From a virus, in the IMG/VR virus record IMGVR_UViG_3300033273_000396, positions 1-20,917 of that record: a stretch of 20,917 nucleotides of DNA; one strand, written 5' to 3'. The translations under genes and the position numbers were made by a program. Positions within the stretch are counted from its first letter, which is position 1; every line of letters begins with the position of its first letter. The notes under the pieces are model-generated. The model made no database searches. It saw only the letters and a program-made list of their open reading frames with translations, and was not told where the DNA came from. This document shows positions 1 through 20,917 of the stretch, piece by piece.

Positions 1-61
1 AAAAAAGTAAGTTTATTAATCTTCTAAAAACTATTTATAGGAAACAAATTATTTTTAGTTT

Positions 62-355
62 ATGAAGAAGTTCAACAAAAAACACAGAGGTGGTTTTGTA
101 AATCAATCATTCGGTATTACTGAAGAGTTTAGGGAGAAGCAAGAAAAGAGATATGGTAAGTTATGGCCAACTATCGACTTTCAAATGCACGAAGATTTTG
201 ACTTCGATGAATACCCATCCGGCCCTCAAAAGATAGGGTATCTACATTTAGGTAACATTGAGGTTGAGTTAACATACGCTGAGTGTAATCGTATTTTACA
301 TACTGTTTCCCAAGCGATGGATACCGCAAGGAAAAAGTATAGGTTAGGTGTCTGA
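62..355 (+). CDS. Conserved-looking small phage protein, unknown function
   Basis: A 97-residue soluble protein with no signal peptide or membrane segment. The N-terminus is basic (KKFNKKHRGG), the middle is acidic and aromatic (residues about 40-55, FDFDEYPSG nearby), and the C-terminal half looks like a short beta strand (GYLHLGNIEVELTY) followed by a helix rich in A, R and K. I do not recognise the family. The ATG at 62 follows an A/T-rich leader without a Shine-Dalgarno sequence; a TATTTATA element sits at 32-39. The end overlaps the next gene by 8 bases, so the two are probably translationally coupled. Coding potential is supported by this overlap chain and by normal codon use. The function is not inferable. 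Confidence 0.7.
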   Translation: MKKFNKKHRGGFVNQSFGITEEFREKQEKRYGKLWPTIDFQMHEDFDFDEYPSGPQKIGYLHLGNIEVELTYAECNRILHTVSQAMDTARKKYRLGV

Positions 356-701
356 GAAAACTGATATTTTTAGTATGTTTGATAAATCGGATGAGTCTAG
401 CGGCTTGTCCGATTATCTAATTACAGTACGGGATGTTATTGTAGAAAAAAAAGACCCGTATTATACATTAGCTAAGAACAACATAAAAAATATCATTCGA
501 GATGAAACCATATCCGAATCTAATTTAACTTATAGAGACAACGCTAACGATAGGTTGGTAAGGATAACAACAGTTCATACTTCTGAATATGTACTAAACC
601 TCATTGACATCTTTAAAGAGTTTATCAATTCAGATAAAGGTGTTTTAAACAAAGAAGCATTGTATTTTTTAAATAATCTTTGGAAAGCTAGGTATGAGTA
701 A
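348..701 (+). CDS. Small unknown protein, GTG start
   Basis: A 117-residue soluble, mostly helical protein of unknown function. It begins at a GTG (348) that overlaps the end of the preceding gene by 8 bases; the later internal ATG at 375 would remove nine residues. The N-terminus is acidic and polar (SEKTDIFSMFDKSDESSG). A charged region and a C-terminal helical segment with hydrophobic spacing follow (VLNLIDIFKEFI, ALYFLNNLWKARYE). No catalytic motif is visible. It is the second gene of a three-gene overlapping chain of small proteins, an arrangement typical of phage accessory genes. A regulatory or structural role would be guesswork. Confidence 0.65.
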   Translation: MSEKTDIFSMFDKSDESSGLSDYLITVRDVIVEKKDPYYTLAKNNIKNIIRDETISESNLTYRDNANDRLVRITTVHTSEYVLNLIDIFKEFINSDKGVLNKEALYFLNNLWKARYE

Positions 702-723
702 TATTTATAGTAAAGGAGATATT

Positions 724-1089
724 ATGGATTGGGATGAGTCTGAATACAACTACTTTATGCATTTAGATGATGTTACTAAAGTTTATTATCTTCACGACTA
801 CTTGTATGGTGAATTAGAATTAGATGAAGATGAACCTTGGGTAGATTTTGAACTCGATGAGGATGACATTTCCTACTTAGAAGATTCAGAGAAATCTCGT
901 AAAGTAGCCGTAGATGTGATTATCGATGACACAACATTTATTATAAAATGTCCTAATAGAACAGTTTTGGAAAACACTGTTAGAATGTTTATGATGGATG
1001 GTTTTATATTAGAGTACTTAGATTCAAACGGTGATGATGTTATGATTTACAATTTGATTGGTCATAGTAATCCAGTGTCAATGAACTGA
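724..1089 (+). CDS. Very acidic small unknown protein
   Basis: About 121 residues, strongly acidic in the N-terminal half (repeated D/E runs such as LELDEDEPWVDFELDEDD). A more ordinary alpha/beta-looking half follows (VAVDVIIDDTTFIIKCP). No known domain was recognised. I chose the ATG at 724 because AAGGAG at 713-718 lies five bases upstream, one of the best Shine-Dalgarno sequences in the window. The same frame is open from an ATG at 694, which would overlap the previous gene by 8 bases and add ten residues (MSNIYSKGDI), so that start remains possible. A TATTTATA element at 702-709 precedes the ribosome site. The stop codon at 1087-1089 overlaps the first regulatory dyad upstream of hsp20. 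The acidity could indicate a DNA mimic, but nothing else supports that. Confidence 0.65.
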   Translation: MDWDESEYNYFMHLDDVTKVYYLHDYLYGELELDEDEPWVDFELDEDDISYLEDSEKSRKVAVDVIIDDTTFIIKCPNRTVLENTVRMFMMDGFILEYLDSNGDDVMIYNLIGHSNPVSMN

Positions 1090-1149
1090 CAAAATGTCTG
1101 ACAACCTGACAAAGTGTAATAAAATACACTATTGGTATTACTTTTGTTC
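1088..1149 (+). promoter_or_regulatory. Probable -24/-12 (sigma-54-like) promoter with upstream dyad sites for hsp20
   Basis: Seen directly: a GACA-AAA-TGTC dyad at 1088-1098 and a near copy, GACA-AAG-TGTA, at 1108-1118. They start 20 bases apart, about two helical turns, with another GACAA half-site at 1100-1104. Downstream, TTGG (1132-1135) and TTTTGTT (1142-1148) place GG at 1134-1135 and GT at 1146-1147, exactly ten bases between them. That is the spacing of the sigma-54 GG-N10-GC element, with GT replacing GC. The predicted transcript start near 1158 leaves a leader of about 26 bases before the hsp20 ATG. The sigma-54 assignment and the activator-site role are inference. Confidence 0.45.
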
Positions 1150-1184
1150 TTTTAATAACAAATTAACATTAAAAAGGGTAATAT

Positions 1185-1532
1185 ATGACACTATTTGATT
1201 CTACATTTAACAAGGTTTTTGATTCCTATTTGAATTGGGATTTAGAAGACCAACGAATTTCAACTACTAACGCTAGAGTTCTTGATGATGTGTTGACTAT
1301 GGAATTTGAAGTTCCTGGTTTGTCAAACAAAGACATCGAGGTGAAAGTAGAAGACCGATTCTTGCTTATCAAGGGTGAAAGTGGTAATAGAAAGTTTGAA
1401 AAGAAATTTAAAATCCACGATGCTTTTGATTTAAATCAGACAAGTGCTGTTGCTAAAGATGGGTTGTTGAGTATTGAAATTCCAAAATACGAAGACCGTA
1501 AATCCAAAAGTATTACAGTAAAAGTTAAGTAA
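1185..1532 (+). CDS. hsp20: Small heat-shock protein, Hsp20/alpha-crystallin family
   Basis: A 115-residue ATP-independent holdase chaperone that would bind unfolding proteins in the host cytoplasm. Many T4-like marine phages carry one. The alpha-crystallin domain spans about residues 28-101. It includes the conserved VPGLSNKDIEV (43-53), VEDRFLLIKGE (55-65) and the AxxKDGLLSIEIPK segment (88-101). The C-terminal tail has an I-x-V motif (ITV, 110-112), which in this family docks into neighbouring subunits during oligomer assembly. The N-terminal arm is short, about 27 residues, and the total is slightly below the usual 140-150. The start is the ATG after AAAAAGGG (weak ribosome site). The upstream region carries paired dyads and a -24/-12-like promoter, so this gene is probably separately regulated. 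A tiny gene follows one base after its stop, and then a terminator. Confidence 0.93.
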   Translation: MTLFDSTFNKVFDSYLNWDLEDQRISTTNARVLDDVLTMEFEVPGLSNKDIEVKVEDRFLLIKGESGNRKFEKKFKIHDAFDLNQTSAVAKDGLLSIEIPKYEDRKSKSITVKVK

Positions 1533-1533
1533 G

Positions 1534-1725
1534 TTGAATTGGTTTAGGTACGACAAGGTTACATTTAATGACAAACTCTATTTGGTTTTAAGGAAAATAA
1601 GAGAAGACCAATTACCAATTGTCGCTACCTGGAAATCCCACTTGAACGCTGATATTGTATTACGAAAAGATGGCTTTTTCTATTTTTGCCAAGAAGTTAC
1701 GGATGTCGAGTGGGAAGATATTTGA
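1534..1725 (+). CDS. Tiny unknown protein downstream of hsp20, TTG start
   Basis: A 63-residue open frame beginning with TTG, one base after the hsp20 stop and ending just before a strong terminator, so it shares the hsp20 transcript. The frame has no internal Met, hence the TTG call. The sequence alternates basic and hydrophobic residues in a beta-rich pattern (KVTFNDKLYLVLRKIRE, then DIVLRKDGFFYFCQEV) and ends acidic. It resembles a small single-domain beta protein, but I do not recognise the family. Position, full use of the gap and codon pattern support it being real. The rare start codon and small size leave some doubt. Confidence 0.5.
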   Translation: MNWFRYDKVTFNDKLYLVLRKIREDQLPIVATWKSHLNADIVLRKDGFFYFCQEVTDVEWEDI

Positions 1726-1741
1726 AACGGACTTAACATAA

Positions 1742-1769
1742 GGGGGGGTTCTTTTGAATCCCCCTTTTT
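1742..1769 (+). terminator. Strong intrinsic terminator after hsp20 operon
   Basis: A G-rich stem (GGGGG-G-TTC, 1743-1751) pairs with GAA-T-CCCCC (1756-1764) across a TTTT loop (1752-1755), with one internal G·U pair. Five T residues follow at once (1765-1769). The 1770-1893 stretch after it is A/T-rich, holds no gene and contains a TATAAT at 1802-1807 without a convincing -35 partner. Confidence 0.88.
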
Positions 1770-1905
1770 ATATACTATTTTATTTAAGTTAGTTCGTATA
1801 GTATAATTTTATCCAAAAAGATGTTTTTGGTAATTTTTTAGAACTACTTATCAATGAAATTATTTATTAATCTGATATTCGTATCGTAAAACTATGGAGT
1901 TTTTT

Positions 1906-2178
1906 ATGGATGGAATTGTTAATGAAAAGTTTAATGAAGCAAAAGCTTGGTATAAATCCAAAACTATAATTGGATTAGTTATATCATCAGTATCAGCTAT
2001 CGTTTTCTCAATGACAAATGGTAATGTTGATATCCAAGGTGCTACAAATGAAATTTTAAATGCTGACAGTGTTGTTGAGTCGGCTGACAATGTGGTTGCT
2101 GGTGTAATGTTCTTTGTTGGACAAATAGTGGCATTGTGGGGGAGAATAACTGCTAAAACCGGATTGAAGGTAACGTAG
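1906..2178 (+). CDS. Holin-like small membrane protein (two helices)
   Basis: About 90 residues. An amphipathic N-terminus ending in WYKSKT is followed by a hydrophobic helix (TIIGLVISSVSAIVFSM), an acidic loop (about 25 residues), a second hydrophobic helix (VVAGVMFFVGQIVALWG) and a short basic tail (GRITAKTGLKV). The pattern SKTxxG, helix, acidic loop, helix, GRIxAKxxL recurs in small phage proteins often annotated as putative holins; it would sit in the host inner membrane. No endolysin lies beside it, so lysis function is unproven. I prefer the ATG at 1906 because GGAG (1896-1899) lies six bases before it; an in-frame ATG at 1894 would add four residues. The gene lies alone between two intrinsic terminators and must have its own promoter. 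Confidence 0.7.
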   Translation: MDGIVNEKFNEAKAWYKSKTIIGLVISSVSAIVFSMTNGNVDIQGATNEILNADSVVESADNVVAGVMFFVGQIVALWGRITAKTGLKVT

Positions 2179-2211
2179 TACTTGTTTAAAATTTAACAAT
2201 TATTTAACACT

Positions 2212-2239
2212 GGGGGCTTGTATAAGTCCCCTTTTTTTT
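2212..2239 (+). terminator. Intrinsic terminator after holin-like gene
   Basis: GGGG-G-CTT (2212-2219) pairs with AAG-T-CCCC (2224-2231) across a four-base loop (GTAT), again with one internal G·U pair, followed by eight T residues (2232-2239). It matches the terminator at 1742 in architecture, though not in loop sequence. Confidence 0.88.
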
Positions 2240-2267
2240 GTATTTTTATATAGTAAAATAAAAAAGT

Positions 2268-3197
2268 ATGACAAATCTCGGATATTGCTGTATCAATATG
2301 ACCCTTCGGAAAGACAAGATTACTACTAATCGTAGTATGATTAAAAAGACTTTCCTCAAAGAAGGTATCACAAGGTCATCAGACCTTGCTCTACAAAACG
2401 CAAAAGACCTTGTAGAGATTATCAAATGGAATGAAAGGAATGGCTTTAAACTCTTTCGTATGTCTTCTGACTTAGTTCCGTGGGCTAGTGAGTTCAAGTT
2501 GTCGGATATGCCAGACTATGAGAAGTTTAGTAACGTACTCAAGGGAGCAGGTACTTTGGCTAAAAAGTATGGTCAGAGAATCACATCACATCCTGGCCCA
2601 TTCAATGTTCTTGTATCTCCCAATCAGAGAGTCGTAGACAACACCATCAAAGACTTATCTATACACGGAGAACACTTTGACCTTATGGGGTTAGAGAGAA
2701 GTCACTACAACCCAATCAATATACATTGTAATGGTGTGTATGGTGACAAACAATCCGCTATGGATAGGTTTTGTAAAAACTTTGAAAGGTTACCTGAGTC
2801 AGTACAATCAAGATTGGTTGTAGAAAACGATGACAAGGCTAGTATGTACTCAGTCAAAGACCTTATGTATCTACACGAGAAAATTGGTATTCCGATTACC
2901 TTTGACTATCACCACCATAAGTTCAATACTGGTGGACTGAGTGAACAAGAGGCACTTGAGTTGGCTATGTCAACTTGGGGTGACTACAAACCATTGGTAC
3001 ACTATTCTGAATCTCGTACCTTAGAAGAAGAGGGTGTAAAACCACAAGCTCACTCTGATTACATCTATTCTGAAATTAACACATATGGTCATTCTCTCGA
3101 TATTGAGGTCGAGGCTAAGATGAAAGAACTGACTGTATTAGATTATCTTTCCAATTTTGGTAAACACCCAAAAGGGCATAGTATGGGGAAAGCTTGA
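2268..3197 (+). CDS. uvsE: UV damage endonuclease (UVDE/UvsE family)
   Basis: A 309-residue TIM-barrel endonuclease that nicks DNA 5' to UV photoproducts to start alternative excision repair. Length and motif order fit the family: LGYCCIN at the N-terminus (4-10), RMSSDLVPW (64-72), SHPGPFNVL (107-115), NIHCNGVYGDK (151-161), LVVENDD (183-189), FDYHHHKFN (212-220), VHYSES (244-249) and AHSDYI (261-266). Candidate metal ligands are His108, His153, Glu186, Asp213, His216, His245, His262 and Glu280. The position where some family members have a modified lysine two residues before the strand-8 histidine appears to be Leu243; this is an unaligned impression. The ATG follows an A-rich leader with no Shine-Dalgarno. 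Asp is coded mainly by GAC here, unlike many neighbours, which suggests a separate origin. It lies downstream of a terminator and stands alone. Confidence 0.93.
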   Translation: MTNLGYCCINMTLRKDKITTNRSMIKKTFLKEGITRSSDLALQNAKDLVEIIKWNERNGFKLFRMSSDLVPWASEFKLSDMPDYEKFSNVLKGAGTLAKKYGQRITSHPGPFNVLVSPNQRVVDNTIKDLSIHGEHFDLMGLERSHYNPINIHCNGVYGDKQSAMDRFCKNFERLPESVQSRLVVENDDKASMYSVKDLMYLHEKIGIPITFDYHHHKFNTGGLSEQEALELAMSTWGDYKPLVHYSESRTLEEEGVKPQAHSDYIYSEINTYGHSLDIEVEAKMKELTVLDYLSNFGKHPKGHSMGKA

Positions 3198-3219
3198 TTT
3201 TAATTATTTATTATTAAGT

Positions 3220-3245
3220 TTTTTGATATTTATGTGTATCAAAAA
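3220..3245. repeat. Perfect 9-bp inverted repeat between uvsE and membrane gene
   Basis: TTTTTGATA (3220-3228) and TATCAAAAA (3237-3245) form a perfect inverted repeat around an eight-base loop, inside the 134-base gap 3198-3331. There is no T-run after it on the + strand, so it is a poor + strand terminator. The rest of the gap holds no gene; AGCTTGAGCTGC and GCGAAAACG near 3253-3276 could add structure. It may be a protein site or an RNA element. Confidence 0.4.
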
Positions 3246-3331
3246 GTTATTAGCTTGAGCTGCTTAGCGAAAACGTAGTTTGATAATAAGTACAGATTTA
3301 AAAGTTAATAAAACTATATTTTGGAAAGAAA

Positions 3332-4429
3332 ATGAAAAAATTTTTTAACAAGAGGAATGGTTTTGTCTTCTTGATGATTATAAGTACATTCGCCTTGGCT
3401 GGTTCAGCGGCATACTACTCAGTCTTCGGATTGAGTTCTCTTTTTGCTGGAGCTAGATTCGAGGTGATTATTATGGCTGGGGCTTTAGAGTTATCTAAGT
3501 TGGTCGTAGCATCATACCTACATAACAATTGGAAAAAGGCTGGGTGGATGAAGTGGTATCTAACAATAGCAGTTGGTGTACTAATGGTAATCACATCCGC
3601 AGGTATATATGGATTCTTAACATCGGCATATCAAAAAACATCCGACCAGTTAGGAATTATGGACAAACAAATAAACGTAATTGAGTTAAAGAAAGATAGG
3701 TTTTCGGAATCATTAGATGGCTATAAGATTGAAAGAGAACAACTAAACACATCTATATCAGAGTTAACGAAAGGGTTATCTAACAATACTATTCAATACA
3801 AAGATAAGGAAACGGGTGAGATTATCACCACAACATCTTCATCAACTCGTAGAGTATTGAATGCTCAGTTAGATGATATGAAAGAACAACGAAATTTAGT
3901 TTCTATAAAAATGGAAGCTGTAACTGATTCTATAACTAAGTTAGATTTACAAATTTTAGATTTAGAATCAAACAATGAAGTAGCGGGTGAAATTGGCCCA
4001 TTGAGATATATGTCTCAAATAACAGGTAGACCAATGAATGTGATTGTAAATTGGTTTACATTACTAATCGTATTTGTGTTTGACCCATTAGCGATTGCTA
4101 TGGTAATAGCACTAAACAAATTAACAAAAAAGGAAGAGGATGGAATTGAAGATAGTATTCGGAGTACTGATATCAGCGATACTGATGAAGTGTTACCTAC
4201 ACCCAATGTTGATTCGAGCGGGAAGCAGAAGCAAGTATCAATACCTAAAGATGAAGTGGGAGAAGAGGGAAGCAAAACTCCAAAAGAAAAAGTGGAAGAA
4301 GTATCAGAAATTTCTGAAAAAACAAAAACTGAAAAGTCAGATGTAGAGTTTATACCCACAACTGATGAAGCCAAAAAACTATATGGCGAGAAACCTCCAA
4401 AAAGAATAAAACATATATACCGAAGATAA
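3332..4429 (+). CDS. Four-helix membrane protein with long periplasmic or cytoplasmic coiled coil
   Basis: A 365-residue protein of unknown function. A basic start (MKKFFNKRNG) precedes TM1 (about 11-30), then TM2 (about 42-62, with IIMAGALELSKLVVASYLH), TM3 (about 76-97) and a long heptad-like charged segment (about 105-215). TM4 follows (about 237-262), then a 100-residue tail very rich in K, E, S and T that ends in a basic cluster (PPKRIKHIYRR). Similar sequences with the VFGLSSLFAGA and ALELSKL signatures occur in tailed-phage genomes, but I know of no assigned role. With three helices before the coiled coil and one after it, the coiled coil and charged tail should lie on opposite sides of the membrane. 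The gene stands between two gaps and is probably separately expressed. The ATG follows TTGGAAAGAA, which is only Shine-Dalgarno-like. A spanin or superinfection role would be speculation. Confidence 0.8.
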   Translation: MKKFFNKRNGFVFLMIISTFALAGSAAYYSVFGLSSLFAGARFEVIIMAGALELSKLVVASYLHNNWKKAGWMKWYLTIAVGVLMVITSAGIYGFLTSAYQKTSDQLGIMDKQINVIELKKDRFSESLDGYKIEREQLNTSISELTKGLSNNTIQYKDKETGEIITTTSSSTRRVLNAQLDDMKEQRNLVSIKMEAVTDSITKLDLQILDLESNNEVAGEIGPLRYMSQITGRPMNVIVNWFTLLIVFVFDPLAIAMVIALNKLTKKEEDGIEDSIRSTDISDTDEVLPTPNVDSSGKQKQVSIPKDEVGEEGSKTPKEKVEEVSEISEKTKTEKSDVEFIPTTDEAKKLYGEKPPKRIKHIYRR

Positions 4430-4430
4430 G

Positions 4431-4463
4431 TTTGGATTATTCAAATAATTTTTGTATATTTAG
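4431..4463 (+). promoter_or_regulatory. Possible Bacteroidota-type promoter before clpP-like gene
   Basis: TTTG at 4431-4434 is followed after 20 bases by TATATTTA (4455-4462). This is close to the TTTG / TAnnTTTG pair known for Bacteroidota housekeeping promoters, with the last G missing. The 63-base gap is A/T-rich, so chance matches are likely. The tentative call rests on the position ahead of a multigene operon. Confidence 0.2.
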
Positions 4464-4492
4464 TTAAATAAAATAAAAAAATATCGTTTATA

Positions 4493-5119
4493 ATGGATGA
4501 ATTATACGGAAGCACGACATCGGCTGGTAATATGGAAGTAAACTATGAGCCAGTAGATGGCAATGATACACAACGTAGATATTATAGAGAATTTGACTAT
4601 GGTATTGATACAACTGATAATGTAATCTTAATTCAAGATGAGATTCAAGCTGGACTTACATTTGATATAGTATCTAAAGTTAGACTACTCAAAAAAATTA
4701 ATGGTGAATTGGATACCATTAATATTCTACTCAATTCACCAGGTGGTGATGTTATTGAGACCCTTGCGTTGATTGATTATATCAAATCACAAAAAGACCA
4801 AGGTATTAAGTTTAATATCATTGTAAGAGGAGCAGCTATGTCAGCCGCTGCACTTCTTCTAACGTGTGGTACTGGCATCCGTGCTGCATCTAAACACTCT
4901 AAGATTATGGTTCACCAATTGTCAACTGTTGTGGTTGGTAAATTGAGTGATGTAAAATCAAATGCTAAGTTTAGTGAAGAGTTGGAGAGCGATTGTAATC
5001 AACTTATGGCTGACAATACAAATAAAGACAAAAAGTATTGGGAAGGTATTTCATCTTCAGATTACTTTATGTCAGCCGAAAAGGCTTTAGATTTGGGTAT
5101 CATTGATAAAATTATTTAA
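4493..5119 (+). CDS. ClpP-like serine protease (peptidase family S14)
   Basis: A 208-residue self-compartmentalising-type serine protease. The Ser-His-Asp triad can be placed: Ser117 in GAAMSAAALLL, His141 in KIMVHQLS, and Asp190 just before YFMSAEKAL, matching the position in E. coli ClpP. The substrate-binding loop LLNSPGGDV (79-87) and the closing LGIIDKII are also family-typical. The first 40 residues are a divergent polar, acidic extension with no propeptide motif I recognise. In tailed phages S14 enzymes may mature the capsid, or act as ClpP analogues on host or phage proteins. No capsid or portal gene is in view, so either remains open. The start ATG has an A-rich leader without Shine-Dalgarno. 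It heads a compact operon, and the next gene begins three bases after the stop. Confidence 0.9.
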   Translation: MDELYGSTTSAGNMEVNYEPVDGNDTQRRYYREFDYGIDTTDNVILIQDEIQAGLTFDIVSKVRLLKKINGELDTINILLNSPGGDVIETLALIDYIKSQKDQGIKFNIIVRGAAMSAAALLLTCGTGIRAASKHSKIMVHQLSTVVVGKLSDVKSNAKFSEELESDCNQLMADNTNKDKKYWEGISSSDYFMSAEKALDLGIIDKII

Positions 5120-5122
5120 GTT

Positions 5123-5902: not shown

Positions 5903-6180
5903 TGGTTATAACAATTATATTATTGTCAGTAGCGACAATCACGTTTGCATTTACAACTTGGAATCTTCTTCGTAAGAACGAAGCTTCTGAAGATGTTATT
6001 TTAGAACAAGAAGAAATGATTTCAACTATGGCTTCTAAAATTGACAATGCTATGGCTAAAATGAAGGAGTTAGATTCCAAAGGTTCATTTGAGGCTGATG
6101 ATGAAACAGGGTTTATATTTAAAAACCTATATGAAATTATTTCCGAATTAGAAAAATACTATGCCAAGGAAGAGAACTAA
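5902..6180 (+). CDS. Small single-pass membrane protein
   Basis: A 92-residue protein with an N-terminal membrane anchor (residues 2-22, MVITIILLSVATITFAFTTW) and a soluble, acidic helical remainder (coiled-coil-like 28-60). It ends in a segment with the pattern FEADDETGFIFKNLYEIISE (64-83). This FE-DDE-G-FFK-like pattern is familiar from small anchored proteins in marine T4-like phages, with no assigned function. The start ATG overlaps the HD-hydrolase stop by one base (TAATG), and the gene overlaps the sigma-factor gene by 20 bases, so it is co-translated with both. There is no signal peptidase site. Its location suggests a regulatory or membrane-tethering role, but that is inference only. 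Confidence 0.78.
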   Translation: MVITIILLSVATITFAFTTWNLLRKNEASEDVILEQEEMISTMASKIDNAMAKMKELDSKGSFEADDETGFIFKNLYEIISELEKYYAKEEN

Positions 6181-8182: not shown

Positions 8183-8189
8183 GAGTCTG

Positions 8190-8669: not shown

Positions 8670-8693
8670 TTATTAATTAATTAGATAATTATA

Positions 8694-8710: not shown

Positions 8711-8713
8711 ACT

Positions 8714-9184
8714 ATGGATACAAAGAAACTAATAAAAGCAATTCAACTTATTATTAAGGAAGAAGTGAAGAAGGAAGTAGCTAAACGTGAGAAGGCTATT
8801 CGTGAATCTATCCTTAAAGAAGTTAAACAATCACAACCAAAAGTTGTTGAAAAAGACCCGCTTGATGTAGACCACATCTTTGAACAAAGAAAAGAACAAA
8901 AGTCGTTTACCAAAAACAGTATGTTAAATACTATGTTAAACGAAACTGCCCAAAGTGGTGAGTGGAGAAATCTGGATGGTGGGCCAAGAGTATTCAACTC
9001 ATCACACGCTCAAGGATTTGGTAGTATGATGAACCCACAATCTTCAGTATTACAAACGCCTGAAGGTGGACAAGTATCTACACAAGAGTTACAAAAAACG
9101 GAAGCCGGTCAGGCAGTAGTTAGCGCATTAACAAGAGATTACTCTGGTTTAATGAAAGCTATAAATACTAAAAAAGGTAAATAA
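8714..9184 (+). CDS. Unknown helical protein upstream of gp25, probable virion or assembly protein
   Basis: A 156-residue protein. Residues 1-40 are a highly charged Lys/Glu-rich helix (IIKEEVKKEVAKREKAIRES) with coiled-coil character. The centre is polar (FTKNSMLNTMLNETAQ, then SGEWRNLDGGPRVFN), and the C-terminal part is Gln/Gly-rich with a final helix (AVVSALTRDYSGLMKAIN). No membrane segment or enzyme motif is present. Proteins of this layout occur beside gp25 in marine T4-like phages, without known function. The stop overlaps the gp25 ATG by one base, and the gp25 late promoter lies within its last codons. The start ATG follows an A/T-rich late-type promoter region with no Shine-Dalgarno. 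Confidence 0.75.
   Translation: MDTKKLIKAIQLIIKEEVKKEVAKREKAIRESILKEVKQSQPKVVEKDPLDVDHIFEQRKEQKSFTKNSMLNTMLNETAQSGEWRNLDGGPRVFNSSHAQGFGSMMNPQSSVLQTPEGGQVSTQELQKTEAGQAVVSALTRDYSGLMKAINTKKGK
9160..9167 (+). promoter_or_regulatory. Exact T4-type late promoter box before gp25
   Basis: TATAAATA matches the T4 late consensus at every position. It lies in the end of the previous coding sequence. With T4 geometry transcription would start near 9173, eleven bases before the gp25 ATG at 9184. On reading I found no second exact copy on the + strand, so this may drive the baseplate wedge genes. Confidence 0.5.
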
Positions 9185-9621
9185 TGGCTAGACAACGTGT
9201 AAGTAAGAGAATTAATCCGTTAGACCTACAAAAGAATACGGCAATTGGAATTCCGTTTCCTTTGGGGGGTGTTCCTATTTTCAGCAGTACTTACACAACT
9301 GAAGAACAAGCATTATCTAATTTAAAAAATTTATTATTAACACGAAAAGGTGAGCGACCATTCCAACCTTTGTTTGGAACAGACATCCCTTCAATGTTGT
9401 TTGAAAATATTGAGATTCCACTTTTAAGAAGATTGGAAGCTGGTTTGGAAGAAGACATAAAGTTTTGGTTACCATACATAAACATAAAAGATATTTCAGT
9501 TACGGAAGAGGCAGACCTAAACCGAATGAACGTATCACTAACCTTTTCAGTTGGTGAAAGTGGAGCAAATCAGATAATTATATTAAATGTCGATGAACAA
9601 GCTGGTGTATCGATAGCATAG
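9184..9621 (+). CDS. 25: Baseplate wedge protein gp25
   Basis: A 145-residue member of the GPW/gp25 family, which in contractile tails sits at the wedge core, binds the gp6-type protein and starts sheath assembly. The hallmark is the segment ALSNLKNLLLTRKGER then PFQPLFGTDI (about 43-68). It contains the family's Arg/Glu core (RKGER) and the xPxFG motif. The following helix (LFENIEIPLLRRLEAGLEED) and the paired C-terminal strands (NRMNVSLTFSVG, NQIIILNVDE) match. Length is close to T4 gp25 (132). An exact late-promoter box lies 16 bases before the ATG. It precedes gp6 by 11 bases, the classic order. Confidence 0.93.
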   Translation: MARQRVSKRINPLDLQKNTAIGIPFPLGGVPIFSSTYTTEEQALSNLKNLLLTRKGERPFQPLFGTDIPSMLFENIEIPLLRRLEAGLEEDIKFWLPYINIKDISVTEEADLNRMNVSLTFSVGESGANQIIILNVDEQAGVSIA

Positions 9622-9632
9622 GGAAGCGTAAG

Positions 9633-11546
9633 ATGGCTGACAAAATAAAAAAGAATGTAAACTTAATAGGTAGGGACTTTGGTGAAATCCGAGATAATCT
9701 TGTTGATTTCACAAAAACATATTTCCCACAAACCTATAATGATTTTAATGAATCATCGCCGGGTATGATGGTTCTTGAACTTGCCTCATATGTTGGTGAT
9801 GTTCTTTCATACTATACTGATATTCAATTAAGAGAATCTATCTTAGAGCAAGCTCAAGAGAAAAAGAATATATTTGCAATCGCACAAGCATTTGGTTACA
9901 AACCCAAACTTAATGTACCAGCTACAACGACATTAAGTGTATACCAAATAGTCCCAGCGGTTGGTAGTGGTGATAATGTTAGGCCGGATTACTCATACGC
10001 TCTTACTTTAAAAGAAGGTATGAAGGTAACCGCTGAATCAGATGCTGAGATTGAATTCAGTACAACACAAAAAGTGAGATTTAGTTATTCATCATCATTC
10101 GACCCAACTGAGGTATCAGTATATCAAATCGATGATAACACAAATGAACCAATTCAATATTTGTTAAAAAAATATGTTAAAGCCGTTAGTGGTAAAGAAA
10201 GAACAGCTGAATTTACATTTGAATCTCCAAAGATATACGACAAGATTAGAATCCAAGATGAAGATGGGTTAATTGATGTAATTAAGATTACAGACGATGA
10301 TGGTGATGAATGGACAAAAGTTGATTACTTGGGTCAAGACACGGTATTTGAAGAAACACCAAATACTTCCGAGTATTCATTAGAACATTCAGCTTATAAC
10401 AACGACACCCCAGCTCTTTTAAAACTTAAAAAAGTTCCAAAGAGATATATAACACGGATAACTGATGATGGTGAAATTGTAGTTCAATTCGGCGCCGGTG
10501 TATCAGCAAACTCTGATGAAGAGTTATTACCGAACCCCGACAACGTAGGTTCAGCGTTATACAATTCAACGGGTGATATCAATCAAGGTATAGACCCATC
10601 AAACTTTATGTATTCTAAAACATATGGGGTAGCGCCAGCTAACACAACACTAACTGTAACGTATAGAGTAAGTAATGGTGTAGTTGATAATGTGGTATCA
10701 CAAGACTTAACACAAATTTCTGAGATGGTAGTAGAAACTCCAAACACGGGATTAGACAACGCACAATACGACTCTTCAGTATCTTCTATCGCTGTTACAA
10801 ACGAAGCGCCTGCTAGAGGTGGTCGATTTGAAGAGGAGATGGAAGAGGTTAGAGAAAACGCTAAAGCATATTTTAGTGCACAAAATAGAAGTGTAACTCG
10901 TGAAGATTACCTTGTAAGAGCATACGCTATGCCACCTCAGTTTGGGTCTGTTGCAAAAGCGTTTGTTGCTCCTGATTTTCAGATAAACACACTCTTAGAT
11001 GATGGTAATGACCGAATAGCTAATCCATTAGCTGTAAACTTATATGTGTTGGGATATGACGCTGACAAAAAATTAGCATTACTAAACAACGCAACCAAAC
11101 AAAACTTAGCAAACTATCTATCATATTATAGAGTTCTTACGGATGCTATCAATATCAAGAATGGTTATATTGTAAACATTGGTGTTGATTTTGAGATAAT
11201 TGTAAAACCAAACTACAACTCAAATGAAGTATTACTCAAATGTATAGAAAAAGTAAAAAATTATTTTAGTATAGATAAAAGACAAATAAACCAACCAATA
11301 TTATTATCAGACATATATGTTATGTTAGATGAAATTGATGGAGTTCAATCCGTGGTTAGACCTAATAGTGATGGTCTTGGTGGTTTACAAATTGTAAACA
11401 AATATGGTGGAACATATTCAAAACATAGATACGATATGAAAACGGCTACAAAGAACGGAGTAGTTTACCCACCAAAAGACCCATCTCTATTTGAAATCAA
11501 ATATCCTGATACAGATATTAGAGGTAGAGTAGTTCCGTTATTTTAA
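9633..11546 (+). CDS. 6: Baseplate wedge protein gp6 (baseplate J family)
   Basis: A 637-residue wedge protein, close in length to T4 gp6 (660). Two gp6 copies per wedge normally clamp one gp7 and form the inner ring. The N-terminus carries the family signature: RDFGEIRDNLVDFTKTYFPQ (about 14-33), then NDFNESSPGMMVLELASYVG and DVLSYYTDIQLRES. The middle (about 90-390) is a beta-rich insertion. The J-like part starts near residue 393 (RGGRFEEEMEEVRENAKAYF, then SAQNRSVTREDYLVRAYAMP). The C-terminal helical and strand region (ATKQNLANYLSYYRVLTDAI, then GVQSVVRPNSDGLGG) follows as in gp6/gpJ. A GGAAG ribosome site precedes the ATG. It continues the gp25-gp6 order with a nine-base gap to the next gene. 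Confidence 0.93.
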   Translation: MADKIKKNVNLIGRDFGEIRDNLVDFTKTYFPQTYNDFNESSPGMMVLELASYVGDVLSYYTDIQLRESILEQAQEKKNIFAIAQAFGYKPKLNVPATTTLSVYQIVPAVGSGDNVRPDYSYALTLKEGMKVTAESDAEIEFSTTQKVRFSYSSSFDPTEVSVYQIDDNTNEPIQYLLKKYVKAVSGKERTAEFTFESPKIYDKIRIQDEDGLIDVIKITDDDGDEWTKVDYLGQDTVFEETPNTSEYSLEHSAYNNDTPALLKLKKVPKRYITRITDDGEIVVQFGAGVSANSDEELLPNPDNVGSALYNSTGDINQGIDPSNFMYSKTYGVAPANTTLTVTYRVSNGVVDNVVSQDLTQISEMVVETPNTGLDNAQYDSSVSSIAVTNEAPARGGRFEEEMEEVRENAKAYFSAQNRSVTREDYLVRAYAMPPQFGSVAKAFVAPDFQINTLLDDGNDRIANPLAVNLYVLGYDADKKLALLNNATKQNLANYLSYYRVLTDAINIKNGYIVNIGVDFEIIVKPNYNSNEVLLKCIEKVKNYFSIDKRQINQPILLSDIYVMLDEIDGVQSVVRPNSDGLGGLQIVNKYGGTYSKHRYDMKTATKNGVVYPPKDPSLFEIKYPDTDIRGRVVPLF

Positions 11547-11555
11547 AGGTAGATT

Positions 11556-14071: not shown

Positions 14072-14084
14072 AAACGAATAAAAG

Positions 14085-14666
14085 ATGTTTTACTTTAGAA
14101 TCGGTGATATTGAAACAACTACTCCTTGGGAAGCCCCAAGGAAAGATAGATTTATAGGTTGGTGGAATAAGTTCAATTCATCGGTAGATTTATCGGACTA
14201 TAAATGTTATTTAGTAGGGTCTTTCGCCGAAAATATGTATGGGGCTAATATTCAAACTATGGATGTTGATATTGTTTTAAGAAATGAAATCAAAGACCCA
14301 TACAAGTTAAAAAACATTATGGATACCGCTATGGTACTTGGGTTTCAATCCAAAATGTTTGTAGATATAAAGTGGAGTTGTGAAACCTTGTGGGCTGAAC
14401 ACCTTGGACTTAGAAAAAAATGTGATAGACCATCAAAGTTGAACAAATTTAAAAGAGTCAAAAATCACAACTACAGTGTAAAGACTCGTAATGGAATTAC
14501 ATTAGAACGAAGGTTACTTCCTGAATCTTTAAATGTTACTAAAATAATTCCCGGTTTATTTGAAATAGAAGGGTATGATTATTATACGACATCAAAAGTC
14601 AGAAAAAGAATGAGAGAAAATATTTATAATGGTAACTATATGGATTTAAAGAATGCCCTTAGATAG
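14085..14666 (+). CDS. Nucleotidyltransferase-fold protein inside tail operon
   Basis: A 193-residue protein with the Pol-beta/MNT-type nucleotidyltransferase signature. A Gly-Ser motif (Gly45-Ser46 in YLVGSFAENMYG) is followed after 13 residues by Asp60-x-Asp62 in MDVDIVL, and a third acidic residue, Asp94, lies in MFVDIKW. All three expected metal-binding acids are present, so the enzyme looks intact. The C-terminal third is basic (RKKCDRPSKLNKFKRVKNHN, KVRKRMREN), which may bind nucleic acid. The family transfers NMP to RNA, proteins or small molecules; the acceptor is unknown. It has a weak ribosome site (AAAAG) and overlaps the giant wedge gene by 14 bases, so it is co-expressed late with virion genes. 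A catalytic enzyme at this position is unexpected. Confidence 0.7.
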   Translation: MFYFRIGDIETTTPWEAPRKDRFIGWWNKFNSSVDLSDYKCYLVGSFAENMYGANIQTMDVDIVLRNEIKDPYKLKNIMDTAMVLGFQSKMFVDIKWSCETLWAEHLGLRKKCDRPSKLNKFKRVKNHNYSVKTRNGITLERRLLPESLNVTKIIPGLFEIEGYDYYTTSKVRKRMRENIYNGNYMDLKNALR

Positions 14667-17600
14667 ATTTACAAATACAAGCGAGGTACTTTCAAAAGCT
14701 CCGACATTTGGTGATACATTTTCACCAAGCGACTTATCTATACTGGGTAATAACGTAAATTTACCACGAGTAAAACGACTCGACATAGAAGGGTTGCCAA
14801 ATTTATCACAAGTTGCGGTTGAACGACATTACTATGCGGATGAAGCATTACTATCATCTACATATGACCTTCCAATAGAAACCGAAGGTAACTCTTCATT
14901 AGGATACACAATATGTGTTAGACCTGAAAAGGATATTAGAGACGCTGGGTATAACAGTGGTACATACAGCGTAGTCTATAACTTTTTACATAACATCGGT
15001 AATGTTAAGATAGCAGAAATATCGGGAGATAGAACTGAAGTTAAAATTCAATCAACTTATCCAAATGGATTAGGTGCATTTAGAGATTTGTTTTTAAAAC
15101 AAACCGGCCTCGATGCTACAACAAATACATTTTCTGGTACCGATAGACATTTACCTGTAAATTTAAATCTTGGTGATAACAAGCTTGTACCAATTTTAAA
15201 TGCGGATTTCTTTGGGCCAATTGGTGGTACTTTCCAAGCTAAACTTAGATATCCGAGTTCAACTAATGGGCAATTTTTATGGTTACCAATAAATCAAAAC
15301 GCACTTGAAGGTAATCTTTTTGGTAACGATACTAATGAAACTCCTTATCAAACATTTGTTGAGGTAAATTTAGGAGAGGCTATATCTCAGGTTGGAGTAG
15401 TAGGAGGGCAAAATCCGATAACCTTATCTGATTATAATTTCACAACAGGCCCATCTACAGTTTATGTTAAAGCTACTGGTAATTTTGATAAATTTAAATT
15501 ATTAAAAAATCCTGACAGCACTTTGTCTTGGATAAAAAAGGGAGACAACCGACCATTAAGTGAAAGTGAAGTACCATCGGATGTATCTGATAGTTTACGC
15601 GTTGCCGCTAATCCTGGTTCAAGTATTTATGTTCCAATTGGTGGTAAGAGTATGGAAATTTCATATCGAGCGTTAGACACCAATTTCACACGAATTGATG
15701 AGGCTATAATCAAGTTATACACACCACTACCAGATGAAGTAAATATAAATGATACTTCAAAGCTATCATTGGAGTTATTAAATTCTTATATAGAAAAAAT
15801 AATTGTATATTCTGAATTAACAAACCAAATAGAACCAGACTTTTTCTCTGACCCAAATTTCCAAGTAGATATTGATTCGAATCGAGGAAGTAGTGGTGAA
15901 TTTGAAAATTGGAATACATTATTAGATGGTGGATACCCTACGAGTCAAAAAATAGTAGATAAATTGTTTAGTGGCTCATTGGGTAATGTAAAGTTAAACA
16001 TTGATTATTCATCATTTGATAACTTCGTAAACTTCTCATCAGCTAAAGAACGTGTTGAAAACTTTACATATAAAATAAAAGAAATTGAAAAGTATGATGC
16101 TAGAATCACCTTACTACAAGGGGTTAGTGGTTCTGAGGCATTAACAAACATATCATCTTCAATAAAAAGAAGAGATGCTTTGATTGGTACATTTGATGAC
16201 TTTGAACATTGGATGTATTATAGTAATGACAATACATTCTATACCCATTACTCATCATCAGCATACTCAATTCAACCATATCCAAAAGTAAGTAGAGACC
16301 CACATACTCTTTACGACTTTACATCGGCTGACGCACAAACTTGGTATACTGGTACAATTGAAAGCGCTTCGGTATATGACGCTACAAACCAAAATAGATT
16401 ATCAAGAATCATTCCTGTAAACATTCAAGAGGATGAAAAAAATATAGAGTATTCATTATTTGTTGATATGTTAGGTCAGCACTTCGATATATATTGGAAC
16501 TACATAAAAGCAATAACAAGTATAAATGATAGAGAAGAACATCCATTAGATGGTATCTCAAATGATTTGTTAGAGTATGTAGCTAACTCTATGGGCTGGA
16601 AATTGTACAACGGATATTCGGATAGGTCATTGTGGCAATATGAATTAGGGTTGGAATCAAATGGTAGTCCATTACAATCGGGCTCATTGTATTCTAAACC
16701 AACTAAACAAATTGTAGAGGAAACTTGGAGAAGGTTGGTAAACAACTTACCTGATATCTACAAATCAAAGGGTACTGCTCGTTCATTTAAAACATTAGTA
16801 GCATCTTATGGTGTACCACAAACATTCTTAAAAATTAGAGAATATGGTGGGCCAAGAATTCAAGATGATAAAAATGAATATGAACACGAGAGATTTGTAT
16901 ACAAGCTTCAAGCATCTCCATCAAAATATATTTCGAATCCGTGGGATGATATACAATCAGATAGACCAGATTCGATTGAAGTTATAGGTAAATTACCAAA
17001 ACAAAATTATCACATCCTTAGATTAAATAGTACGGGTGGTAATATTGATTGTTATTGGGATTACAACTCAGGAGACCAAACTGCTAGAATTAGAGCTACT
17101 TGGCCTAATGGTGCTATAAGTTCAAGTTATGTACCATATGTAAATCGTAGAGAAGTTGTATTCACATTAAACTCATCATCTATTGATATTAGAGCCGCTT
17201 GGGTCGATGATTGGGGTAGGTTGTTAGGTAATCCAACTGCATCTAAGTCTGGTAACGATTCCGATTTCCAAAGTGTTTGGTCGGCTAATGGTACGGTACG
17301 AGTGCCTGGCCCAACTACTGATGGAAACGTAAATTCTTATGAAACGGCAAGTATTCAAGAGATTAGATATTATCGTGATGGTATTACAAATGAGATTATA
17401 GAAGCTCACGCTAAAAATAGAGAAGCATACTTTAGTGATGATAACACGACTGACTTAGATATTGATACATCGTATGATAAGTTAATGTATCGTATATTCC
17501 CTGATAGTAGTTTTACCACTAATACATCTTCTATAAGTTCAATTCATCCAAACCAAAAATTTACGGCAAGTGATAGCGGATTGGTATTATCAGCGTCTCT

Positions 17601-18936
17601 AATCAATATGAAACCATTGGATTTGGTTGGTGAAGTTGATACTCAGTTTGTAACTATTCCATCGGTAGGTGCTTTAAACTTATCAAATAAAAAAGTTAGA
17701 ATTGAATCATCATCACTAAGAGGGTCGTTACAATTTGATAAATCAAACGAATTAAGTCAATACGATTTTGCAAGTACGGATTCAAATTTACTTGGAACAT
17801 ATTTCTCAACAACTGACACTATAAACTTTGACATATATGCTTCAGAGGGATATTTCGAAGCAGATGATTTAATTGGTGATACTGATGTAAGAAACATTGA
17901 TGGGTATGATGATTTAGACTATCGTGCAAGAAATTATTTCCAAAAGTACACAAGTGGTACTGCTCTTGATTTGATTATGGATATTCTATCAAGATATGAT
18001 ATGTCTATATTTGATTCAATGAAACAATTGGTTCCTGCTAGAGCCGATTGGCATAAAGGTATCTTGATTGAACCACACGTTTTTGAAAGAAACAATTATA
18101 AAAGACCAGACACAATAACATATACTCAAAATCAATATGACAACGAACCCGCTCCGATAAGTGTATTAAATGTTATTACAGGTTCTTATTTAACATATAC
18201 AAGTTCAATAGAAAAAGACGCATTTGCCGCATCTATTTACAAGTACACGGATATTCAAAGACTTAGTTCTTCAGGTGAATACTTTACGGATACAAATCCA
18301 TATTGGGAATATTCTCCAACAGGTTCTCATATTTTAGATTCAAGATTGTCAAGATATTATTTAGAACCAAAATATTTTTGGAGTACCGAAGAGAGCGCTT
18401 CTATGGGAGTTGAGTTCGCTAATTCAGCATCATTCCATTTAGCACAAATACAAGATACACGTTTATCATTGGCTATGGAAAATCTGATATACAATGGATG
18501 TAAGGTCACAAGTGATTCTTTAACTACCGACTCATTAGATACGCCTGATGGTGAACCAGCTATCGTTGTTACAACGGTAGACCCAAATACATTGATATAC
18601 AACACAACCACAACGGGTGTGGGTGTTGGTTCAGGTGGTGGTGCTGGCTCTGGTCGAGGTGGTGGTAAGAGACCTAAGACAGTAGAGCAGATTAGAAGTA
18701 CCCCAGCTCAAGATTTAGTTGCGGTTCAACAATACATAAAACAAAACGAAGATAACGATACAATAAGTAAAGCTACTGATAGACAATCTGAAAGTAGTAT
18801 CTTAAAATCAACGCCTGTATTTAGTAAAAGTCGTACTAATCCACCGGAAGTTAGACCAGTACCAAATCCAGATAATTTAAGACAAGTTATAAATCAACAA
18901 CTTCGTAAAAGACAAAGAAGAAGAAGTAGATTTTAA
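14653..18936 (+). CDS. Giant baseplate wedge protein, gp7/P2-I-like with LamG-like domain
   Basis: A 1427-residue structural protein, longer than T4 gp7 (1032). The N-terminal third is beta-rich, and a helical segment lies at about 457-489 (FVNFSSAKERVENFTYKIKE). Next come about 601-655 (LFVDMLGQHFDIYWNYIKAI, LLEYVANSMGWKLYNG) and about 688-737 (TWRRLVNNLPDIYKSKGTAR, SFKTLVASYGVPQTFLKIRE). The last two resemble the tail-protein-I core. A concanavalin/LamG-like domain lies at about 780-947 (ASIQEIRYYRDGITNEIIEA). The C-terminus has a Gly-rich linker (about 1320-1335) and a very basic end (QQLRKRQRRRSRF). Given gp25 and gp6 upstream, it is probably the gp7 equivalent. The start overlaps the NTase gene by 14 bases and has no clear ribosome site. 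Confidence 0.82.
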   Translation: MPLDRFTNTSEVLSKAPTFGDTFSPSDLSILGNNVNLPRVKRLDIEGLPNLSQVAVERHYYADEALLSSTYDLPIETEGNSSLGYTICVRPEKDIRDAGYNSGTYSVVYNFLHNIGNVKIAEISGDRTEVKIQSTYPNGLGAFRDLFLKQTGLDATTNTFSGTDRHLPVNLNLGDNKLVPILNADFFGPIGGTFQAKLRYPSSTNGQFLWLPINQNALEGNLFGNDTNETPYQTFVEVNLGEAISQVGVVGGQNPITLSDYNFTTGPSTVYVKATGNFDKFKLLKNPDSTLSWIKKGDNRPLSESEVPSDVSDSLRVAANPGSSIYVPIGGKSMEISYRALDTNFTRIDEAIIKLYTPLPDEVNINDTSKLSLELLNSYIEKIIVYSELTNQIEPDFFSDPNFQVDIDSNRGSSGEFENWNTLLDGGYPTSQKIVDKLFSGSLGNVKLNIDYSSFDNFVNFSSAKERVENFTYKIKEIEKYDARITLLQGVSGSEALTNISSSIKRRDALIGTFDDFEHWMYYSNDNTFYTHYSSSAYSIQPYPKVSRDPHTLYDFTSADAQTWYTGTIESASVYDATNQNRLSRIIPVNIQEDEKNIEYSLFVDMLGQHFDIYWNYIKAITSINDREEHPLDGISNDLLEYVANSMGWKLYNGYSDRSLWQYELGLESNGSPLQSGSLYSKPTKQIVEETWRRLVNNLPDIYKSKGTARSFKTLVASYGVPQTFLKIREYGGPRIQDDKNEYEHERFVYKLQASPSKYISNPWDDIQSDRPDSIEVIGKLPKQNYHILRLNSTGGNIDCYWDYNSGDQTARIRATWPNGAISSSYVPYVNRREVVFTLNSSSIDIRAAWVDDWGRLLGNPTASKSGNDSDFQSVWSANGTVRVPGPTTDGNVNSYETASIQEIRYYRDGITNEIIEAHAKNREAYFSDDNTTDLDIDTSYDKLMYRIFPDSSFTTNTSSISSIHPNQKFTASDSGLVLSASLINMKPLDLVGEVDTQFVTIPSVGALNLSNKKVRIESSSLRGSLQFDKSNELSQYDFASTDSNLLGTYFSTTDTINFDIYASEGYFEADDLIGDTDVRNIDGYDDLDYRARNYFQKYTSGTALDLIMDILSRYDMSIFDSMKQLVPARADWHKGILIEPHVFERNNYKRPDTITYTQNQYDNEPAPISVLNVITGSYLTYTSSIEKDAFAASIYKYTDIQRLSSSGEYFTDTNPYWEYSPTGSHILDSRLSRYYLEPKYFWSTEESASMGVEFANSASFHLAQIQDTRLSLAMENLIYNGCKVTSDSLTTDSLDTPDGEPAIVVTTVDPNTLIYNTTTTGVGVGSGGGAGSGRGGGKRPKTVEQIRSTPAQDLVAVQQYIKQNEDNDTISKATDRQSESSILKSTPVFSKSRTNPPEVRPVPNPDNLRQVINQQLRKRQRRRSRF

Positions 18937-18960
18937 AAAATCATTTAAAAATAAAAAAAA

Positions 18961-18976
18961 CAATATTTATATATTG
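18961..18976 (+). promoter_or_regulatory. TATTTATA element before 18996 gene
   Basis: CAATAT-TTAT-ATATTG at 18961-18976 is a short palindrome containing TATTTATA (18964-18971). It lies in the 59-base gap between the wedge gene and the next structural gene. An AGAGGAA ribosome site follows at about 18984-18990. On + the word differs from the T4 late box by two central bases; on - it is the exact box. It may be a late promoter variant. Confidence 0.3.
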
Positions 18977-18995
18977 AAACAAAAGAGGAAACAAT

Positions 18996-19640
18996 ATGGG
19001 ATTTTTAGATAATTCATCTGTAACAATAGACGCTATCCTTACCAAGAGAGGAAGAGAGTTACTCGCGGAAGGTAGAGACAAATTTCAAATTACCCAATTC
19101 GCACTTGCGGATGATGAGGTTGATTATGACCTTTGGAATCCTGCGCATTCATTAGGTAGTGACTATTACGGAATCATCATCGAGAATATGCCAATCTTGG
19201 AGGCTATTACTGATGAAAACTATTTAATGAAGTATAAATTGTTATCTTTACCTAAATCTACGGTAAAGCTACCATTTATCGAACTTTCAACAACTACAAT
19301 TTCTGCAACGGAAGAAGGAACACCTGTAACTATTAACGTAACTACTAAAAATGGTGGTAATTCACAATTAGGATATACCGCTATATTACTTAATAGTGAT
19401 GTTGGCGCAATTCAAGGGAACGCCGGTGTACCTGGTACAGTAACTCCTATTATAAATGTAAATTCTTACGCAACCAATAAGGCAATCGCTGTAAATGGTT
19501 TAAATCAATTTACATTTACACCAACAAATAATCTTCCTGTCAATACAACTACTACTACGAGAGTTATCATAGTAGGTAATGAGACTGGTGGTAGAGCTGA
19601 GGTTGATATAACATTAACACCCAAGGTAACTGAGAGATAA
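18996..19640 (+). CDS. Conserved virion protein with Ig-like C-terminal domain
   Basis: A 214-residue structural protein. The N-terminal half carries a signature I associate with marine T4-like phage virion proteins: MGFLDNSSVTIDAILTKRGR then ELLAEGRDKFQITQFALADD, and later YYGIIIENMPILEAITDENY. The C-terminal half (about 98-214) is a Thr/Asn/Val-rich beta sandwich (ISATEEGTPVTINVTTKNGG, TTTTTRVIIVGNETGG, AEVDITLTPKV), compatible with an Ig-like domain, a frequent surface module on phage virions. A strong ribosome site precedes it (AGAGG, with the ATG about eight bases on). Its role in tail or fibre assembly is inferred. The next gene begins 11 bases later. Confidence 0.8.
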   Translation: MGFLDNSSVTIDAILTKRGRELLAEGRDKFQITQFALADDEVDYDLWNPAHSLGSDYYGIIIENMPILEAITDENYLMKYKLLSLPKSTVKLPFIELSTTTISATEEGTPVTINVTTKNGGNSQLGYTAILLNSDVGAIQGNAGVPGTVTPIINVNSYATNKAIAVNGLNQFTFTPTNNLPVNTTTTTRVIIVGNETGGRAEVDITLTPKVTER

Positions 19641-19651
19641 GGAGATAGACT

Positions 19652-20914
19652 ATGGCATTTTTCAGTAATAATAATTATTTTGGTGGAGCAGCTGCTGGTA
19701 ACGGATTTTATATCAGTGGTGCTGAGTTTATAGGCGGCTTTGGTGGCGGTGGTGGTGGAAATGTAATATCACAAAACCTTAATGCTGGTGGTGGAAGAAC
19801 CACACCTGTATTATCATCGGGTCCTCGTAGTTCTGGTGGAGTAACTCCAATTGATGTACTAACAAGCGATGACATCGCAACTAATGATACTCCTGTAATT
19901 CCAGCAGGCGCATACGATTATGGTAGTGGTAAAGTTTTTACTGCTTTTACAATTGAAGATATCGTAGAGGGTGGTACTAAAAGAGTAACAAGAGGACTAT
20001 GGTCAGGTGGAAGTGGTGAATTAGATGTATTCCACACCTCATCTTACCAATCAAGTACTCAAAAATCATACTACTACGAAATCTATAACGGATTACCAAC
20101 GGTATCAACAAATGAACCTCAGTTCTCAGTAGCATATGGTCACTACGCTGGTAGTGGTTCTGCCGGTACTAATGAAGATTCACCTTCATCGGCAATATAT
20201 TCACAAATGCAACAAGTGTTGTTACCATCTAACCAAAAATTCTTTAGATGGGAAGATACTAATCAAGATGATGTTTATGTAATCGCTATCAATAGAGCAA
20301 GATTAAAAGATAGATTAGACCCAGGAAATTGGGAATTAGTTCTTTCAGGTTCAGGTGGTGAAACACTTAGATTAATCGATGATAGTGGTGACACTAACCA
20401 ATCAGGTAACGCAAGACAAACTAAATACAATGTTGTATCTGGTTCTCTTGTAGGTGGTGTTGTAAATTCAACTTCTATATTTGGTGAAGTATACCCACAA
20501 CAAGGTATCATTGTATTAGGGGCTGCCGCTCTTGATTCATCTGCCTCACTTGGAACAGTACGAAGTCAAACTGACCAACAAAACCACAATAGATTATTTA
20601 CTGCTATTAGTGGTGCGGCTGTAGAAGATTCTGATGATGGTTTCCAAGCTAGAAATGAAGAAGAGGTTAAATCTACATTCTACTTTGTAAGAGCTAAAAA
20701 TGCTGAGTATAATTTTAGTAATAACCCAACATATGTATCTGGCTCTGAAGGAAGATTGGCGCAAAATACATTTATTGGTGACCCTAAAACATATATCACA
20801 TCAGTTGGTCTCTATAACAACGATAACGAATTATTAGCTATTGCTAAGTTATCTCAACCAATATTAAAATCTTTCTCTAACGAAATTTTAATAAAGGTTA
20901 AATTAGACTTTTAA
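19652..20914 (+). CDS. Virion structural protein, Gly-rich N-terminus
   Basis: A 420-residue protein with a very Gly/Asn-rich N-terminus (residues 1-60, FGGGGGGNVISQNLNAGGG) and a beta-rich body. The C-terminal signature is TYITSVGLYNNDNELLAIAK then LSQPILKSFSNEILIKVKLDF read as separate short blocks. Sequences ending in this way are common among T4-like marine phage structural proteins, with no precise role known to me. An AAGGAG ribosome site (19640-19645) gives a confident start. The protein probably belongs to the tail or baseplate periphery, since it follows the wedge genes in the same direction. The stop is immediately followed by ATG at 20915. Confidence 0.8.
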   Translation: MAFFSNNNYFGGAAAGNGFYISGAEFIGGFGGGGGGNVISQNLNAGGGRTTPVLSSGPRSSGGVTPIDVLTSDDIATNDTPVIPAGAYDYGSGKVFTAFTIEDIVEGGTKRVTRGLWSGGSGELDVFHTSSYQSSTQKSYYYEIYNGLPTVSTNEPQFSVAYGHYAGSGSAGTNEDSPSSAIYSQMQQVLLPSNQKFFRWEDTNQDDVYVIAINRARLKDRLDPGNWELVLSGSGGETLRLIDDSGDTNQSGNARQTKYNVVSGSLVGGVVNSTSIFGEVYPQQGIIVLGAAALDSSASLGTVRSQTDQQNHNRLFTAISGAAVEDSDDGFQARNEEEVKSTFYFVRAKNAEYNFSNNPTYVSGSEGRLAQNTFIGDPKTYITSVGLYNNDNELLAIAKLSQPILKSFSNEILIKVKLDF

Positions 20915-20917
20915 ATG
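20915..20917 (+). CDS. Possible start codon of the next gene, cut by window end
   Basis: An ATG lies directly after the TAA of the previous gene and is the last three bases of the window. Adjacent stops and starts are normal in this operon, so it may open the next tail gene. Nothing of the product can be seen. Confidence 0.25.

Follow-up and report, generated by a model that had tools for sequence, protein, structure and literature searches.

Avoidance of restriction sites is already known in phages. The survey of Rusinov et al. (2018; PMC6286503) found phage genomes to be poor in short palindromic Type II sites, and GATC was under-represented in every one of the 46 phages with hosts that encode the corresponding restriction endonuclease. 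Staphylococcus phage K has eliminated GATC, which was attributed to avoidance of Sau3AI (PMC6532042). Here we describe a 20,917-base stretch of viral DNA (one entire IMG/VR record, IMGVR_UViG_3300033273_000396, called the window below) that contains neither GATC nor CATG. As with phage K, it belongs to the large, GATC-purged genome of a virulent myophage. Unlike phage K, its lineage also lacks CATG, its host is probably a member of Bacteroidota, and the GATC sites left in its relatives lie largely in the longer word CWGGATC. Compared with the phages of the survey, only 0-1 copies remain of 500-700 expected, two words are lost together, and the erased sets vary between sister lineages. The extreme degree and completeness of the loss and the surviving longer word are unusual, while avoidance itself is not. 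We consider it very probable that the window derives from a T4-like myophage whose host is probably an aquatic member of Bacteroidota, and that GATC and CATG have been purged from its genome under selection by the restriction enzymes of its hosts.

Loss of GATC and CATG from the window and its genome

Under a maximal-order Markov model based on tri- and dinucleotide counts, 92.5 GATC and 65.4 CATG sites were expected in the window, and not a single copy of either was found (both words are palindromic, so the zero applies to both strands). The original prediction, read from the letters of the window, had reported the absence of GATC against a rough expectation of about 65 sites; the exact count bears this out, but CATG, which is equally absent, had been overlooked. 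The tetranucleotides next most depleted are CGCG (2 observed, 11.5 expected) and CTAG (13 observed, 55 expected), both low but still present. Observed-to-expected ratios of other palindromes are close to 1 (GTAC 0.75, TCGA 0.89, GGCC 1.15, GCGC 1.06), in line with the earlier remark that other palindromic tetramers occur. The depletion is specific to these words and not a feature of palindromes generally.

Synonymous codons were then shuffled within each gene of the window, with proteins and codon usage kept (2000 shuffles). The shuffled coding sequence carried 58.8 ± 5.5 GATC sites (minimum 41) and 26.3 ± 3.9 CATG sites (minimum 12), and the loss of both words exceeds what protein and codon-usage constraint can account for. 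The codons themselves carry the trace of this loss. Before C, aspartate is encoded by GAC in 46 cases and never by GAT, while at other positions GAT outnumbers GAC by 352 to 90, which is the shift the original prediction had described. Similarly, all 14 histidine codons before G are CAC, and no methionine codon has C directly before it.

The rest of the genome is represented by contig G001 (166,988 bases), a separate IMG/VR record with 99.6% identity to the window across 20,909 bases. In G001, GATC occurs once (699 expected by the Markov model, 456 ± 15 by codon shuffling) and CATG not at all (530 and 252 ± 12, respectively), so the depletion extends beyond the window to the whole genome. Aspartate before C is GAC 324 times and GAT once, although GAC makes up just 18% of aspartate codons elsewhere; histidine before G is CAC in all 201 cases, and none of the 965 methionine codons is preceded by C. 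A GATC-normal relative, G004, is without these codon shifts: GAT precedes C 207 times, and GATC is found 316 times (372 ± 10 by codon shuffling).

These counts bear on two explanations that do without selection. Mutational decay, codon bias or composition could be considered in an AT-rich genome with skewed codon use. However, the Markov and codon-shuffle expectations amount to hundreds of sites genome-wide, the two words are at zero together while GTAC remains at 0.75, and the change from GAT to GAC is T-to-C and not the C-to-T change that deamination of methylated cytosine would cause; we give this explanation practically no credence. An assembly or library artefact, such as restriction digestion during sample preparation, is just as hard to believe: the majority of contigs are metagenomic, yet GATC-free relatives come from many IMG metagenomes, Microcystis phage Mel-JY01, which was deposited as an isolate, is GATC-free too, and the codons of G001 are adapted to the absence.

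Erased word sets differ among relatives

The gp6-like baseplate gene of the window served to find relatives and to build a protein tree. Mel-JY01, G002 and 18 further rows of the tree form a group in which GATC is nearly nil in all members, and the fork joining Mel-JY01 is supported at 90/89. The remaining branches, including the distant sister group, are GATC-normal except for L021, L022 and L037, a separate lineage in which GATC, GTAC (0-1 copies) and ACGT are absent or almost so and each locus has one CATG. Within the GATC-free clade, CATG is gone in the lineages of the window and of L011/L012 and partly depleted in their sisters, and ACGT is gone in L006/L007/L009 and in L011. Loss of GATC is clade-wide, while loss of CATG, ACGT, CTAG or GTAC is restricted to certain lineages. 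Over 250 relative loci of at least 10 kb, the observed-to-expected ratio of GATC is bimodal (154 loci at or below 0.05, most others above 0.6).

Whole-genome scans revealed a private set of erased words in every phage. In Mel-JY01 (L084-L087, PP395634.1) roughly ten words resembling restriction sites have counts of zero or close to it, namely GATC, CTAG, GGWCC, GAATTC (0 observed, 95 expected), GATATC (0, 61), CTGCAG, CTGAAG, GCCGGC, GGCACC and CCAN6TGG. The GATC-normal G004 (L077-L083) lacks TTTAAA (118 expected), G003 (L064-L069) lacks TTATAA (54) and CGWCG (27), G005 (L070-L073) lacks ACGT (83), and G007 (L074-L076) lacks AGWCT (51) and ACGT (95). Such a patchwork is the trace expected from changing host restriction repertoires. 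Near-perfect site erasure is hereby extended to two words together across 167 kb and to a whole clade with lineage-specific erased sets, so that the genomes of uncultured phages can tell which restriction systems their hosts have met.

The patchwork also bears on the idea that nucleases of the phage itself cut GATC and CATG in host DNA, the phage going without these words to spare itself. Such nucleases would likewise produce near-total absence across the clade, many genes of these phages have no known function, and Endonuclease_NS and PD-(D/E)XK proteins are encoded in G001. However, the erased set differs between close relatives and comprises about ten words in Mel-JY01, so that many nucleases per phage would be needed. 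There was no match to the DpnII nuclease in six phage genomes (G001, G002, G003, G005, G007 and Mel-JY01) and none to ICEA, the NlaIII family, in 12 phages, the latter search having no positive control. The UvdE-type endonuclease encoded in the window is a DNA repair enzyme and no candidate for a GATC or CATG nuclease. We regard a nuclease of the phage's own as a quite improbable cause.

Surviving GATC sites in the context CWGGATC

Eight distinct GATC sites in purged relatives formed a discovery set, of which six lie in CAGGATC and seven in CWGGATC. From 295 further loci, 56 new distinct sites were obtained as a test set, discovery sites being excluded. CAGGATC accounts for 16 of these 56 (background 5.8%, p = 7e-8) and CWGGATC for 28 (background 12.6%, p = 1e-11, a value that is somewhat optimistic because this form was picked while looking at the discovery set). 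With discovery and new sites combined and duplicates dropped by 24-mer similarity, the share of CWGGATC increases with the degree of purging: 12 of 12 sites at GATC observed-to-expected ratios below 0.02, 14 of 18 at 0.02-0.04 and 13 of 37 at 0.04-0.08, compared with 9-14% in GATC-normal loci. The single GATC of G001 sits in CAGGATC; the window, with zero GATC, is without residue. The exemption is only partial, because CWGGATC itself is still strongly depleted (in strictly purged loci, with redundancy kept, 40 CWGGATC against 1001 CWGGATT, and in other contexts 48 against about 43,300).

Two ordinary sources of the survivors were rejected. Mutational supply does not account for them, as CWG is present in only about 5% of one-step transition neighbours, and neither does protein or codon choice, as the sites fall in two main frames, GAT-CCW-G (Asp-Pro, 20 sites) and NCW-GGA-TCN (Gly-Ser, 9 sites). 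For CATG, ACGT and CTAG, where sites are few, no residue context of comparable sharpness was found. We give about even weight to the view that CWGGATC, read on either strand, escapes in part because it is cleaved poorly or protected by an overlapping modification, in which case these phage genomes would preserve fine details of how an undescribed GATC restriction system of aquatic bacteria recognises its sites. Slower cleavage and overlapping modification would each suffice, and the data do not separate them. A limited literature search found no paper on such a residue. The survival of CWGGATC suggests that records of this kind may reveal sequence context beyond lists of sites, which is testable in vitro.

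Candidate agents, host and neighbouring genes

If host restriction is the agent, as we infer, an unmethylated site would raise the chance that an incoming genome gets cut, variants losing the site would be favoured, and mutants regaining it would be removed by purifying selection. Many losses are made by synonymous change, from GAT to GAC before C and from CAT to CAC before G. The agents are probably enzymes of the DpnII/MboI/Sau3AI type against GATC in the whole clade and, additionally in the window's own lineage, of the NlaIII type against CATG. Avoidance is supported because the loss is specific to palindromic sites, goes beyond codon and amino-acid constraint, is genome- and clade-wide, and is joined by other sites lost lineage by lineage. 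The original prediction of selection against a DpnII/Sau3AI-type site therefore stands, amended by the erasure of CATG and by the CWGGATC residue of the relatives, with a host enzyme of this type as the probable agent.

A complete DpnII cassette, with a D12 methyltransferase, a DpnII restriction endonuclease and an N6/N4-type methyltransferase, was found in a river Cytophagaceae genome, and Arcicella rosea has a DpnII gene with an adjoining D12 methyltransferase. Such a cassette is a plausible selective agent; it is not tied to the host of this phage, and it accounts for neither the CATG loss nor the CWGGATC exemption. GATC and CATG methylation systems are known to coexist in a single host in Helicobacter pylori (PMC3983042).

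Several points weigh against selection by host restriction enzymes. Strong DpnII matches were uncommon in a sample of 297 Bacteroidota genomes, being limited to 2 of them (8 above the cut-off), and the ICEA/NlaIII family gave one partial match among 297 genomes, in a search without positive control; these were the two families covered on the host side, other families cutting GATC or CATG not being searched. No host or enzyme is tied to this phage. The survival of GATC in CWGGATC is not foreseen by simple avoidance. Finally, the 85 substitutions between the window and G001 created no new GATC where 1.8 were expected, and they are too few to serve as evidence of ongoing purifying selection, so that this comparison was rejected as a line of support.

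A variant of site avoidance, which does not exclude the plain form, assumes hosts with DpnI-like enzymes (cutting Gm6ATC) or mixed DpnI/DpnII populations, against which no state of methylation would protect and only deletion of the site would help. This variant would explain why GATC was erased across the clade rather than protected by self-methylation; streptococcal populations contain DpnI, DpnII and DpnIII side by side as alternatives (PMC12707154), and the 12 phage records searched yielded no D12 (Dam-type) methyltransferase. However, no sequence feature sets this variant apart from plain DpnII avoidance, and CATG would need an additional enzyme; we regard it as rather unlikely.

Few other phage methyltransferases were found, which indicates that most of these phages removed the sites rather than methylating them. 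G001 has no N6/N4 or C5 methyltransferase among recognised families, G002 has partial N6/N4 matches, and Mel-JY01 has an annotated N6/N4-type gene and is the sole phage in which a C5 enzyme was found. One intact N6/N4 gene is present in G331 (L203, L289, L477), two loci of which retain GATC at 0.41-0.56 times the expected count, a single case. G001 also has two adjacent genes of the Mom family, another anti-restriction device as in phage Mu; none was found in 15 other records. Mom modification was rejected as the cause, since relatives without Mom are equally GATC-free.

The window is assigned to a T4-like myophage because it encodes gp25- and gp6-like baseplate wedge proteins and G001 encodes gp23, PhoH, a gp41-like helicase and PolB. 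The gp41-like, DnaB-like helicase is identified by a DnaB_C match and by homology to the annotated helicase of Mel-JY01; RecA, thymidylate synthase and ribonucleotide reductase are also encoded in G001. The closest isolates are Mel-JY01 and Flavobacterium phage immuto, followed by Rhodothermus phage RM378 (capsid protein), and the nearest match of the one G001 Mom protein searched is in Polaribacter phage P12002L. Judged from these sequences, the host is probably an aquatic member of Bacteroidota. A search with UDP-galactopyranose mutase, an accessory sugar gene, was rejected as a means of naming the host: its best matches were mostly Bacteroidota, which agrees with this assignment, but scattered, with at best 61-62% identity. 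The stated Microcystis host of Mel-JY01 is odd, as its relatives suggest Bacteroidota.

Table 1. Positions of features in the window and in related or host sequences
Feature	Sequence	Position	Strand	Basis
GATC/CATG-free stretch	window	1-20917	.	Markov counts and synonymous-codon shuffles
Hsp20 gene	window	1185-1532
UvdE-type UV endonuclease gene	window	2268-3197	+	PF03851, E=2e-60
ClpP-like gene	window	4493-5119
T4-like baseplate wedge gene, gp25-like	window	9184-9621	+	Pfam PF04965; PHROG 219/10646 baseplate wedge (wedge pair 9184-11546)
T4-like baseplate wedge gene, gp6-like	window	9633-11546	+	PHROG 219/10646 baseplate wedge (wedge pair 9184-11546)
Largest open reading frame, 1427 aa, without GATC and CATG	window	14653-18936	+	no PHROG match
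DruA-like protein	G001, L051	2034-3224		PF14236
Mom-family gene	G001, L051	9469-10260		PF25680
Mom-family gene	G001, L051	10244-10999		PF25680
tmRNA-like gene	G004, L080	12474-12768
DpnII cassette	river Cytophagaceae, L172	567-3228		D12 methyltransferase, DpnII endonuclease (1492-2334), N6/N4-type methyltransferase

Near the baseplate cluster of the window lie the Hsp20, UvdE and ClpP-like genes (Table 1). A gene resembling that of transfer-messenger RNA (tmRNA) is present in G004, and in G001 the gene for the DruA-like protein stands between the clamp-loader and polymerase genes.

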